From positions 919 through 45,642 of the forward strand of contig NZ_JABGBW010000010.1 in NCBI RefSeq assembly GCF_014229965.1: 44,724 nt of DNA. Direction: 5' to 3'. Positions within the stretch are counted from its first letter, which is position 1, and each line of letters begins with the position of its first letter. Shown here piece by piece: positions 26,051 to 29,437 of this stretch. The stretch is from Peptostreptococcus canis. Its GTDB lineage: Bacteria > Bacillota > Clostridia > Peptostreptococcales > Peptostreptococcaceae. The notes beneath the pieces were generated by a model, which was given only the letters and a program-made list of their open reading frames with translations, did not search any database and was not told the origin of the DNA. A program made the position numbers and the translations under genes.

Positions 26051-26416
26051 TTATTTAGATAGCAACTTGCCAAAAATAAAGTATGCAATTACCCACAATA
26101 TAATACCAACCAACATAAATATTAATAATACTTTTAGATAATCTATAGGAGTATTTAACTCAAACCAGCCACTAACTATTAAGCATGGAAATACTGTTAT
26201 TAACATAATCAAAAAATGCACAATTGACTGCTTAAATAAAGACCAGTTTTCGATATCATATATTACTGAAGCGGATGCAACCACTGTCACTATAATACCA
26301 ACGATGAATGTGCTCCTCACTTGAAAGGCATCCATTTTCTGATATTTCATTATTAATGATATTGCAGTCATTATGATAAAAGGAAATACTCCTCTGACTA
26401 CTGCTTCTTTTAACAT
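26051..26416 (-). CDS. DUF3021 family membrane protein
   Basis: A 121-residue protein with four predicted transmembrane helices (about 7-23, 37-57, 67-87, 94-115). The central segment RSTFIVGIIVTVVASASVIYDIENWSLFKQSIVHFLIML is typical of DUF3021 proteins. Many DUF3021 genes sit beside a LytTR-type DNA-binding gene; none is present here. Function unknown. The ATG at 26416 is eight bases after GGAGG, and an ATG five codons upstream overlaps that site. A good promoter lies about 75 bases upstream. Confidence 0.75.
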   Translation of the reverse strand: MLKEAVVRGVFPFIIMTAISLIMKYQKMDAFQVRSTFIVGIIVTVVASASVIYDIENWSLFKQSIVHFLIMLITVFPCLIVSGWFELNTPIDYLKVLLIFMLVGIILWVIAYFIFGKLLSK

Positions 26417-26490
26417 TTTTATCTCCTCCATAAATTCCAGTTTATTACTTATTTATTTCTTATAGTTATACCGCTCTTATAGACCTTTTT

Positions 26491-26519
26491 AGTCTATCAC
26501 CTATAATCGATAGTGTCAA
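26491..26519 (-). promoter_or_regulatory. promoter of the DUF3021 gene
   Basis: On the minus strand this is TTGACA, 17 bases and TAGACT, with TG one base before the -10. The spacer and -10 hold a small dyad, CTATC and GATAG, which could be an operator. It lies in the 316-base region 26417-26732, which also contains a repeat at 26546-26579 and the cys leader promoter. Confidence 0.55.
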
Positions 26520-26545
26520 GTTTTTGTGGAGTTTAGTGTTGTTAT

Positions 26546-26579
26546 TATGATAATGTCACCTTAGGATTAATTTTGGACT
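26546..26579. repeat. 34-bp exact repeat, copy 1 (possible mobile-element end)
   Basis: The 34 bases starting TATGATAATGTCACC and ending TTTTGGACT recur exactly at 44691-44724. Similarity extends a further ten or so bases to the left (GTTGTTATT) with a two-base gap. Here it is followed by TTGTCACTTTTTG, giving a second TGTCAC. No transposase gene is adjacent. A solitary end of an insertion element or a dispersed intergenic repeat are both possible. Confidence 0.6.
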
Positions 26580-26625
26580 TTGTCACTTTTTGATATAAAA
26601 TAATAACATATTTTTCTCTTATATA

Positions 26626-26654
26626 TTGACAATCACAAAGTGATGTTATAAAAT
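26626..26654 (+). promoter_or_regulatory. promoter of the cysteine leader and cysK-cysE
   Basis: TTGACA, 17 bases and TAAAAT. The spacer contains a perfect inverted repeat ATCAC-AAA-GTGAT (26632-26644), which could be a repressor site. Transcription would start near 26661, leaving about 70 bases before the leader peptide start codon. Confidence 0.65.
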
Positions 26655-26732
26655 TATATTTAATTAATTCCTAGTATTTTTATCGGAATTAAAATTTAAT
26701 TCGAGAAATGACAATAATAAGGAGATGTTAGT

Positions 26733-26813
26733 ATGAATAAGTTCAAATCAACAAAAAAATTCATAAACGCCGCTTTCGGGGGAATCTCTTGTTGTTGCTG
26801 TTGTTGTAGATAA
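26733..26813 (+). CDS. 26-residue leader peptide with six consecutive cysteines
   Basis: ATG is seven bases after AAGGAG. The peptide begins MNKFKSTKKFINAAFGG and ends ISCCCCCCR before TAA. The six Cys codons are TGT TGT TGC TGT TGT TGT at 26790-26807. The gene lies 363 bases upstream of cysK, in the same direction and behind its own promoter. Six consecutive codons for the end product of the downstream genes are the signature of a translation-dependent attenuator: low charged tRNA-Cys would stall the ribosome there. The RNA just after it can adopt alternative folds. A structural or metal-binding micropeptide is a less likely alternative. It is too short for most gene callers. Confidence 0.8.
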   Translation: MNKFKSTKKFINAAFGGISCCCCCCR

Positions 26814-26979
26814 TCTTTTTTGCATAATCTACCAAAGTAATAGCAATTAAAATAAACGGTAGATTTATAGCAATCTTAGCTAATTATTGAGTATTCTTTA
26901 TATTTTCAACTTATTTCAAAAAATATTTTTATACGTGGTTTTTACATGCAAAAAACCTCTATTTGATGTAGATTTTTTT
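26806..26979 (+). promoter_or_regulatory. candidate cysteine attenuator RNA between leader peptide and cysK
   Basis: Segment 1, GTAGAT (26806-26811), overlaps the last Cys, Arg and stop codons. Segment 2, AATCTACC (26826-26833), can pair with segment 1 or perfectly with segment 3, GGTAGATT (26858-26865), but not both. Segment 3 can instead pair with AATCT at 26872-26876. Further on, GGTTTTT (26937-26943) pairs with AAAAACC (26951-26957), in competition with an A-tract/TCTA-TAGA hairpin that ends in seven T (26973-26979). The stretch 26814-27176 has no other gene; an AGTATT/AATACT hairpin near 27021 is followed by a T-rich tract. The competing pairings are visible; the mechanism is inferred. 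Confidence 0.5.
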
Positions 26980-27176
26980 GATTAATTATTATTTGATAAC
27001 CATTTAATATCAATATTTGAAAGTATTATGTAAATACTCATTTTTATTCACAAACTATCCAAATAATAATATAAAAAAATATAATAAGAAATTCAATATT
27101 TATATATTCAGAAATACCTAGTATATAAATATATATCAAAAAATATAATAACAGTAGACAAAAAGGAGAAAATATC

Positions 27177-28064
27177 ATGAAAAAAAATGTAATCGAATTA
27201 ATAGGAAAGACACCAATAGTCAATATTTCAAAAATAGACAAAAATATATTTGTAAAGCTGGAAAATAAAAATCCTGGTGGCTCAATCAAGGATCGTGCCG
27301 TACTTGGAATGATATTAGGAATGGAAGAAAGAGGAAAACTTATTTCAGGAGACAGAATAGTGGAAGCAACAAGTGGAAATACCGGTATAGCAACTGCAAT
27401 GATTGGAAAAAGTAGAGGTTATGACGTGACAATTATAATGCCTGAATCAATGAGCCAGGAAAGAAGGGCTCTAATAAGAGCTTTTGGTGCGGAACTTATT
27501 CTTACTGAGGCATCAAAAGGTATGCAGGGTACAATTGATAAAATGAACGAACTTCTTTCCACTGGAAACTATAAATCCCTAGGTCAATTTAATAATAAAG
27601 ACAACCCTGACTTTCATTATAAAACGACGGGGCCTGAAATTTTTGAAGATATAGATGATTTAGATATATTTGTAGCCGGTATCGGTACTGGTGGTACTGT
27701 ATCAGGTATAGGTAAATATTTAAAAGAAAAAAATCCTAACATCAAGATCTTTGGAGTAGAACCTGAAGCTTCTCCTCTAATTAATAAAAATATAGCCGGT
27801 CCTCATAAAATTCAGGGAATTGGAGCAAACTTTATACCAAAGAACCTAGATTTAAATATTATTGATGAGGTGATATTAATAACTGATGACGAGGCTTTTG
27901 ATATGATGAAAAGAGTTTCAAATGAAGAAGGAATAATGCTTGGTATATCATCTGGTGCCAATATAGCTGCAGCTAAAAAACTAGCTGAAAGATTTCCTGG
28001 CAAAAAAATTGTAACTGTTGCTCCAGATGGTGCAGAAAAGTATATGTCAATGAATATATTCTAA
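27177..28064 (+). CDS. cysK: cysteine synthase (O-acetylserine sulfhydrylase)
   Basis: A 295-residue fold-type II pyridoxal-phosphate enzyme that makes cysteine from O-acetylserine and sulfide. The cofactor lysine is Lys38 in NPGGSIKDRA; the substrate loop is EATSGNTGIATAM (about 63-75), the phosphate-binding loop is GIGTGGTVSGIGKYL (about 170-184), and SSGANIAA lies near 263. Length fits CysK/CysM. Start supported by AAGGAG. It is followed after 40 bases by cysE, giving the two-step serine-to-cysteine pathway. The leader with a six-cysteine peptide upstream suggests control by cysteine supply. Confidence 0.95.
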   Translation: MKKNVIELIGKTPIVNISKIDKNIFVKLENKNPGGSIKDRAVLGMILGMEERGKLISGDRIVEATSGNTGIATAMIGKSRGYDVTIIMPESMSQERRALIRAFGAELILTEASKGMQGTIDKMNELLSTGNYKSLGQFNNKDNPDFHYKTTGPEIFEDIDDLDIFVAGIGTGGTVSGIGKYLKEKNPNIKIFGVEPEASPLINKNIAGPHKIQGIGANFIPKNLDLNIIDEVILITDDEAFDMMKRVSNEEGIMLGISSGANIAAAKKLAERFPGKKIVTVAPDGAEKYMSMNIF

Positions 28065-28104
28065 TAATTCATATGATTGACATATAAGAAAGCGAGGAAA
28101 ATCG

Positions 28105-28704
28105 ATGAAATTGATTAAAAATATAGATTACATTATTGCAAATGACCCTGCTTCTAGTAGGGGAAATTTGAAATTTTTAAATAGACTAAAAGTATTTATA
28201 ATATATCCCTCTGTCCATGCATTAATTGGACATAGTATATCACATTTTCTCAGCAATATTGGACTTAAATTTTTGGCAAGGCTTATTTCTCAAATTTTTA
28301 GATTTTTTACAGGTATAGAAATACATCCCGGTGCCAAAATTGGTCATAGTATAATGATAGATCATGGTATGGGTGTTGTAATTGGTGAAACAACTGAAAT
28401 AGGAAATAGAGTAACAATATATCAAGGTGTCACTCTTGGTGGTACCGGTAACCATACCGGTAAAAGACATCCAACAGTTGGTGATGATGTGGTGATAGGC
28501 TCAGGTGCTAAAGTTCTTGGTCCTATAACGTTGGGAAATGAAGTTAAGATAGGTGCCAATAGTGTTGTTCTTAATGATATTCCAAATGGTGCTACTGTGG
28601 TTGGAATCCCGGGAAAAATCGTAAAGATTAAAAACACTCACTATGATTCGAAAATGATAGATTTAAATGAAAAAAGAGCTATAAATGAGATGTATTATAT
28701 ATAA
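28105..28704 (+). CDS. cysE: serine O-acetyltransferase
   Basis: A 199-residue enzyme that acetylates serine with acetyl-CoA, the committed step of cysteine synthesis. It has a short helical N-terminal part and a left-handed beta-helix of hexapeptide repeats from about residue 70. The catalytic Asp86-His87 pair is in [17 protein letters not shown] and the CoA-binding region in [20 protein letters not shown]. The N-terminal domain is shorter than in the E. coli enzyme, as usual in Gram-positives. The C-terminus lacks the long tail ending in Ile seen in forms that bind CysK tightly, though it does end in Ile. Start after GAGGAAA. Transcribed with cysK. Confidence 0.94.
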
Positions 28705-28763
28705 CAGATCATTCTAAGTGAATTATAAATATTAATATAATTTATTGAAATAATATCATAAAT

Positions 28764-28811
28764 AACTATAAAAAGATTCCCAATTTATTTTTGAGAATCT
28801 TTTTTATAGTT
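28764..28811. terminator. intrinsic terminator between convergent cysE and DUF2812 genes
   Basis: AACTATAAAAAGATTC (28764-28779) pairs with 28795-28811, with a single bulged base and a 15-base loop. T-rich on the plus strand and A-rich on the other side, it can serve cysE and probably the minus-strand PadR-DUF2812 unit. Confidence 0.75.
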
Positions 28812-28888
28812 TCTCCATTGTGACAGGAAGCTGAGGTTACTGCACTTTTACCTTTGCCTCTTGAAATAATCTTTATACAAATCGCAAT

Positions 28889-29437
28889 CTATTCCCAAAT
28901 ATCTTTTTCTTCTTTTGGCAAAGAATATTTCCTATGCTTTCGAACACCCAAAATGAAGAAGATGATCCCGGAAATGATTAAGCCTACATCGATAACAATG
29001 GTAATCCAAAACGGAACACCTTTTGGCTGCACGTAGTACAGTGTTTGAATCAACATAATAATCCCCAACATAAACTGAGATATAGCGGTGATGAATAAAT
29101 GGGAATATCGCTTGTTCATTTGCTTTGTGACCTCCTTCTTTTCTGTATACAAATCCAGAGGACCATCGGCTGCATTCTTCCTAAGATACACCCTCCCACC
29201 ATACTGTGCCACTACAGAAATACCGGTTTGTTCTAAGAAATCAAGATATTCCTTTTTCTTTCTGCCTGTATAATCAGGTATATCTATCTTATACTGATAC
29301 TTTACTGGAGAAACATCCTCAAACTCATATTCTCCATTATGATAGCCTATAAGCATTAGTCCATTTTCACCTTGCTCATTCAACCATTGTTCTTCCTTGT
29401 AGATGTCCAAAAAAGTCTTTTTAATACTTGTTTTCAT
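28889..29437 (-). CDS. DUF2812 domain membrane protein
   Basis: A 182-residue protein. Residues 1-90 form a soluble DUF2812-like domain (EEQWLNEQGENGLMLIGYHNGEYEFEDVSPVKYQYKIDI, then EFLEQTGISVVAQYGGRVYLRK in form). Two transmembrane helices follow (about 106-128 and 137-160). DUF2812 proteins are typically encoded immediately after a PadR repressor, as here: its ATG lies 17 bases inside the end of the PadR gene. Function is unknown; a role in membrane stress or drug response is often guessed from the PadR pairing. Base composition looks more GC-rich than neighbouring genes, which hints at acquisition by transfer. Confidence 0.8.
   Translation of the reverse strand: MKTSIKKTFLDIYKEEQWLNEQGENGLMLIGYHNGEYEFEDVSPVKYQYKIDIPDYTGRKKKEYLDFLEQTGISVVAQYGGRVYLRKNAADGPLDLYTEKKEVTKQMNKRYSHLFITAISQFMLGIIMLIQTLYYVQPKGVPFWITIVIDVGLIISGIIFFILGVRKHRKYSLPKEEKDIWE

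Follow-up and report, generated by a model that had tools for sequence, protein, structure and literature searches.

A putative cysteine-sensing leader peptide upstream of cysK-cysE in Peptostreptococcus

Does a short open reading frame that ends in a run of cysteine codons, and that lies upstream of the cysteine synthesis genes of Peptostreptococcus canis, act as a leader peptide that senses cysteine, and, if so, by what means would it control the genes behind it? To address this question, we analyzed a stretch of DNA of 44,724 nucleotides, referred to here as the window, together with the corresponding loci of related genomes. The leader ORF (26733..26813, forward strand, as are all features described unless noted otherwise), which was defined by translation and by its conservation in the genus, comprises 26 codons and a stop and encodes the peptide MNKFKSTKKFINAAFGGISCCCCCCR, with six consecutive Cys codons (26790..26807) being followed by Arg and TAA. 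Its Shine-Dalgarno (SD) sequence, AGGAGA (26720..26725), is found 7 nt upstream of the ATG. After a spacer of 363 nt from the leader stop comes cysK, encoding cysteine synthase A (27177..28064; TIGR01139, 384.9 bits with a cut-off of 350.95) and preceded by an AGGAGA SD of its own (27164..27169), and then cysE, encoding serine O-acetyltransferase (28105..28704; TIGR01172, 223.3 bits with a cut-off of 210.65). An earlier note, made from this DNA alone, had described a leader ORF with a binding site, ending in six Cys codons, Arg and stop and positioned before cysK-cysE; all of these elements were found as described, with both genes scoring above the curated cut-offs. We consider it very likely that the leader peptide is cysteine-responsive. 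The reading that we favor, and deem probable, is that this leader peptide senses cysteine and thereby governs how the cysK-cysE message is translated, namely, by translational attenuation, while sequestration of the cysK SD as the main output is proposed with slightly less assurance, as the likelier outcome.

A run of six TGY codons is found at a single place in the window and is absent from all of 100 dinucleotide shuffles. In the genome as a whole, four successive TGY triplets are found at 17 places, including three inside the leader itself, and the leader is the only ORF among these with an SD-like stretch, a start codon and CCC. To assess conservation, we relied on a CysK search that matched 57 of 61 genomes, from which 30 loci were considered. 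Besides the window's own, eight of these belong to the same genus, while the remaining 21, which are the best-matching of the cysK matches outside it, each come from a different genome elsewhere in the family or order. In all nine genus genomes, cysK is preceded by a short SD-led ORF with a run of 3–6 Cys codons, with eight distinct peptides being represented (MNKFKSTKKFINAAFGGISCCCCCCR, MKNIVSKNLISIVFGEFSSCCCCCCR in two genomes, MKSRQTKNFIFTAFGGISCCCCCSCNC, MRNIKKKIEYSNSYGGVSSCCCCCCPSV, MNVRQLKKIITTAFGGISSCCCCCS, MMFLQLEKYNIRSFGGVSCCCCCC, MKVRQLKTIITTAFGGISCCCCCCK and MNNLQFKKLITTAFGGISNCCCSK). Conservation of the ORF and of its Cys run in relatives, which the earlier note had proposed to look for, was thus found in 9/9 genus members and supports its claim of a Cys-codon leader before cysK-cysE, with the ORF being under selection, bearing in mind that the nine species are related, such that neither the conservation nor the codon counts given below are independent. 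The leaders contain 3 to 7 Cys codons, with TGT and TGC being exchanged, and end 72–363 nt before cysK. Their N-terminal halves diverge, while the segment (F/Y)G(G/E)(I/V/F)S before the Cys run is kept. A search of a collection of named genomes with the pattern SD-ATG-(F/Y)GG-x-S-x-CCC yielded 13 contigs, five of which belong to Peptostreptococcus (two P. russellii, P. faecalis, P. anaerobius and P. sp. MV1); these five carry five of the eight leader peptides, all leading into cysK-cysE.

The earlier note likened this layout to that of trp/his-type attenuators. One feature of these is indeed present, in that the leader ORF is rich in codons for the end product of the operon. A scan for hairpins followed by a T-run, begun 20 nt ahead of the leader in each of the nine genus loci and carried on as far as cysK, nonetheless revealed no intrinsic terminator between leader and cysK (0/9), whereas the same scan, serving as positive control, detected at least one site at the operon end downstream of cysK in 9/9 loci. 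In the window, the terminator-like hairpin with a T-run after cysE lies at 28774..28808 (-6.3 kcal/mol) and has a mirror on the other strand. As no intrinsic terminator was found before cysK, the leader does not look like a trp/his-type attenuator, and this part of the earlier description is not supported. The approximately 80 nt that follow the leader stop do fold, with energies of -11.7 to -23.0 kcal/mol in seven of the nine loci, these being raw folding energies, and of -3.7 and -1.3 kcal/mol in the two loci with spacers of 72–73 nt, where a shorter stretch was folded.

The end of the leader is, at the same time, complementary to the ribosome-binding region of cysK. Pairing calculations pointed to an anti-SD segment, AUCUCU, contributed by the codons of Ile18 and Ser19 (26784..26789). 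In the predicted long-range helix (-23.6 kcal/mol), the 5' arm begins at base 2 of the Ile codon and takes in all of the Cys codons (26785..26808), such that the proposed sensor would itself be part of the helix, and the 3' arm, TATAATAACAGTAGACAAAAAGGAGA, ends in the cysK SD (27144..27169). When the cysK side was dinucleotide-shuffled 500 times for each of the nine genus loci (L001 to L009), the observed energy was reached once in L001, three times in L006, never in L007, L008 and L009, 34 times in L005 and 73 times in L004 (both being weak results), 366 times in L003 and 403 times in L002. When the SD was kept and only the sequence upstream of it was shuffled, the counts of 1000 were 1 for L001, 8 for L004, 1 for L007, 5 for L008 and 4 for L009, with 51 for L006, 286 for L005, 879 for L003 and 979 for L002. 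As a further yardstick, we used the starts of 30 other ORFs in the window, with this one genome serving for all loci; the number pairing at least as well as the locus' own cysK was 0 for L001, L007 and L009, 1 for L004 and L008, 2 for L006, 3 for L005, 29 for L003 and 30 for L002. Pairing between leader and cysK ribosome-binding site (RBS) thus exceeds that of SD-preserving shuffles in five of the nine genomes, is borderline in one (L006) and is unsupported in three (L005, L002 and L003), for which another or a modified account is needed. In L002 and L003, the cysK SD region reads AAAGGAAAAG and is predicted to be open without any masking (accessibility of 0.93 and 0.96, respectively), with post-leader folds of -20.1 and -23.0 kcal/mol.

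Masking of the footprint of a stalled ribosome in silico raised the accessibility of the cysK SD above that seen with every control window in five of the nine loci, namely, from 0.18 to 0.40 in L001 (30 controls), from 0.50 to 0.66 in L006 (23 controls), from 0.53 to 0.72 in L007 (5 controls), from 0.19 to 0.85 in L008 (12 controls) and from 0.31 to 0.60 in L009 (6 controls). In L002, L003, L004 and L005, the gain was not above that of the controls. Leaders and RBSs that were swapped between loci bind about as well as do cognate pairs, and little compensatory change can, therefore, be claimed. An anti-SD fits any SD. All five leaders with Ile before the conserved Ser encode it by ATC, a rare codon making up 6.8% of the Ile codons (n = 1156) across 32 ORFs of the window. 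The conserved Ser is encoded by TCT or TCC in 9/9 leaders (38% together). Although the stretch preceding the Cys run has the look of a conserved peptide, this codon choice points to the RNA level.

The anti-SD segment could also pair with the SD of the leader itself. Such pairing was matched by 0 of 500 shuffles in L004 and L007, 2 in L008, 9 in L005, 22 in L002, 55 in L001, 63 in L003, 140 in L006 and 152 in L009, such that the idea of a leader-SD hairpin is supported in part only; one double change, from GAGAU:AUCUC to GAGAC:GUCUC, was recognized by eye in L005. Competition of the leader SD and the cysK SD for a single anti-SD is allowed by these data, yet not proven.

The mode of action that we propose, based on these predicted pairings, is as follows. 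With ample Cys-tRNA, the ribosome would complete the leader and depart, upon which the anti-SD arm would pair with the cysK SD and translation would be turned off. With Cys-tRNA in short supply, the ribosome would wait at the Cys codons and mask the anti-SD arm, the cysK SD would open, and CysK and CysE would be made. A regulator of the Rrf2 family (IscR/CymR-like), acting at a box near the promoter, would probably add control at the level of transcription. In erm-type translational attenuators, a stalled leader ribosome likewise frees a sequestered SD; the signal proposed here is amino acid supply, whereas theirs is a drug.

Several other explanations should be considered. In transcription attenuation, translation of the leader would decide whether RNA polymerase stops before cysK, either via Rho or via an atypical terminator. 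In the Rho version, a departed ribosome would expose the spacer to Rho, while a waiting one would shield it. Rho-dependent control enters consideration because Rho is encoded (574.4 bits), and the stable post-leader folds in seven of nine loci, the three species without supported leader:RBS pairing and an earlier proposal of Rho for actinobacterial Cys leaders (PMC1262725) would all fit such a scheme. The nine loci, however, contain no intrinsic terminator, two species have spacers of 72 and 73 nt, which offer little room for a Rho site, no conservation of the spacer is seen by eye, and attenuation of transcription does not predict the complementarity of leader and RBS. We thus regard this explanation as unlikely. 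The kept segment before the Cys run, following a variable N-terminal half, might instead suggest arrest by the nascent peptide, with FGG(I/V)S stalling the ribosome on cysteine or a related thiol, such that the peptide and not the supply of Cys-tRNA would be the sensor. As the codons concerned are at least partly explained as an RNA anti-SD (ATC only, TCT/TCC only) and as the leaders differ in their count of Cys codons, which ranges from 3 to 7, we find arrest of this kind quite improbable.

Still less probable is that the leader encodes a small functional peptide that binds thiols or metals and is co-expressed with cysKE. The good SD, the conservation and the potential of poly-Cys to bind metal agree with such a role, but the N-terminal half diverges, the number of Cys residues varies and the ORF is always located before cysK; moreover, the places with four TGY codons in the same genome or with five in eight relatives yielded no further short SD-led ORF. 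Finally, the ORF could have arisen by chance, with cysKE being controlled solely at the promoter via the Rrf2-type box found in 9/9 loci. This we find hardly credible, given that SD, ORF and Cys run are kept in 9/9 loci at differing distances from cysK and that none of the 100 shuffles contained such a run.

As to the promoter that the earlier note had assigned to the leader, a promoter-like site, TTGACA-17-TAAAAT (26626..26654), is present, as found by consensus scan only with 11 of 12 matches. It has the top score among 22 promoter-like sites in 26300–28900, yet shuffled sequence would be expected to contain 17.0 of them, and the promoter itself is, therefore, weak evidence. An inverted-repeat box, TTAATTCCTAGTATTTTTATCGGAATTAA (26664..26692), which is presumably of the Rrf2 (IscR/CymR-like) type, starts 10 nt past the -10 hexamer. 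Boxes resembling TTAATTCCTAGTA-N5-ATCGGAATTAA lie upstream of the leader in 9/9 genus loci and match 25–29 of 29 positions, as compared to at most 21 of 29 in the 21 loci outside the genus, it being noted that the consensus was derived from the nine genus loci themselves and then scored on the outside loci. The distance from box to leader ATG is 21–40 nt in seven genus loci, about 84 nt in L009 and about 129 nt in L004.

Only one other site with three or fewer mismatches is found in the same genome, just before an Rrf2 gene that is flanked by ORFs which we take to be RarA-like and MnmA-like. The Rrf2 protein scores 141.5 bits with CymR, its best match (cut-off of 195), and 134.8 bits with IscR (cut-off of 207.55), both being below the cut-offs, and matches solved CymR and IscR chains, with a BadM/Rrf2 protein being the best. 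In eight relatives, 17 box sites were found, with a reversed control giving 3 matches. Six of these sites precede cysK, three precede an Rrf2 gene, two precede a gene for a SufC-like ATPase and six have no clear target. Given the scores of the Rrf2 protein below the CymR and IscR cut-offs and the varied targets of the box, we refer to the box as Rrf2-type (IscR- or CymR-like) and not as a proven CymR operator. As a candidate element near the promoter, it may add a transcriptional layer to the control of cysKE. The SufC-like genes concerned, named by eye, are at L160 (G001:C4:381-404) and L165 (G008:C15:108087-108110), which hints that cysteine synthesis and Fe-S assembly may be controlled together. 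A more elaborate version, which we put forward tentatively and hold to be rather unlikely, is a two-layer cysteine/Fe-S switch, in which an IscR-type Rrf2 regulator would gate transcription of cysKE and suf, and, within the transcript, a single anti-SD segment contained in the Ile/Val-Ser-Cys codons would toggle between leader SD and cysK SD, with the leader governing its own translation while sensing Cys-tRNA. If true, a poly-Cys attenuator would have evolved independently in Clostridia, at a position occupied in some relatives by a T-box.

Other genera appear to place different devices before cysK. The scan that found the leader in the genus revealed no SD-led Cys-run ORF before cysK in the 21 outside loci. 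Three of these contain a T-box (L015, L016 and L027), 13 an inverted repeat (L010–L012, L014, L018, L020–L025, L028 and L030) and five neither. The repeat consists of one or two copies of TTATCA-N3/4-TGATAA within 300 nt upstream of cysK, in six cases as a pair 34 nt apart, and is perhaps the operator of an unnamed regulator. T-boxes (RF00230) were found neither in the window nor in the eight other genus loci, while each genus genome contains 13–18 matches at E ≤ 0.001 (a few being below the gathering score), none of which is closer than 20 kb to cysK on the contig that carries it. A T-box or other Rfam element at the leader was thus rejected, with the window containing a PyrR binding site elsewhere and one match at chance level; the PyrR site (RF00515, 35060–35185, reverse strand, 59.2 bits) is the sole Rfam match in the window at the gathering score. 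As regards the statement of the earlier note that cysteine control in Firmicutes has mostly been described through CymR and T-boxes, T-boxes are found at the same place in 3/21 outside loci, and an Rrf2-type (IscR/CymR-like) box lies just downstream of the promoter.

Leaders of this kind have been described elsewhere. Predictions made in 2005 placed poly-Cys leaders that lack conserved terminator hairpins in Mycobacterium, P. acnes and B. longum (PMC1262725); those of M. smegmatis were seen by ribosome profiling (PMC4633059). Papers citing Canestrari et al. 2020 relate a cysteine-dependent attenuation that acts on translation (PMC9031893, PMC13236596; also cited in PMC9094748). A study of Rhodobacterales describes the uORFC-8-2 motif before cysS, comprising a uORF with two Cys codons and an intrinsic terminator (PMC8632094). 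The assertion that poly-Cys upstream ORFs are mainly known from mycobacteria is thus nearly right, if extended to P. acnes and B. longum and to cysS of Rhodobacterales. Among the literature matches listed, i.e., the best 3 to 20 of each search, with coverage mostly not extending to subscription papers, none reports a poly-Cys leader from Firmicutes.

Like the mycobacterial uORFs, the Peptostreptococcus leader is a short ORF that contains a Cys run and precedes cysteine genes, lacks a conserved terminator hairpin and, as proposed here, would attenuate translation in a manner tied to the speed of the ribosome at Cys codons. It differs in belonging to another phylum, in that one operon was found and in the Rrf2-type box near the promoter. 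Since the mycobacterial mRNAs are leaderless, whereas the present leader has its own SD and a presumed 5' UTR, we did not file it with the mycobacterial set; it resembles poly-Cys leaders in its proposed mode of action, by which it is grouped with them. The uORFC-8-2 motif likewise places Cys codons within a uORF upstream of a gene related to cysteine, but only two of these, before cysS and not cysKE, and with an intrinsic terminator that is absent in Peptostreptococcus. End-product codons are shared with trp/his-type leaders and with the histidine leader peptides that precede hisS/hisZ in bacilli (PMC2965389), while no terminator was found here; the hisS/hisZ leaders are also Firmicutes leader peptides in places where relatives have a T-box. 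In Clostridium perfringens, cysKE is preceded by a Cys-specific T-box (PMC2940859), i.e., the same operon and signal, yet with a tRNA-binding RNA that has a terminator and no leader peptide. If our reading is true, a poly-Cys attenuator would exist outside Actinobacteria, in a T-box-rich genus that uses none here, and one could test how control devices have replaced one another in front of the same operon among members of a single order. The find suggests that poly-Cys leaders are worth seeking in other phyla.

Searches beyond cysK were based on the peptide itself. The pattern GG-x-S-x-CCC, which misses the FGEF leaders of G002 and G007, matched 16 of 197 relatives, i.e., seven of the nine genus genomes and nine others, and in these nine no SD-led leader before a cysteine gene was recognized. 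In one of the loci, L048, a frame of 20 aa is accompanied by an SD-like stretch and has CCC close to its start, and another, L051, reads FGGISGCCC without an SD. A peptide profile run against 398 genomes of the phylum gave nothing at E < 0.001 except for the window's own leader; of 70 weaker matches, 29 with loci were examined, yielding two SD-led short CCC ORFs (L099 and L110) with no nameable cysteine gene downstream. In the eight other contigs of the named collection, the pattern is in long frames or has no in-frame start after the SD. As these patterns miss poly-Cys leaders without GG, absence elsewhere holds only for this form of the peptide. As a separate observation, four genus genomes contain an ORF of 134–155 aa with a very Cys-rich C-terminus (L043, in the C23:18028 region of the window's own genome, L115, L120 and L129).
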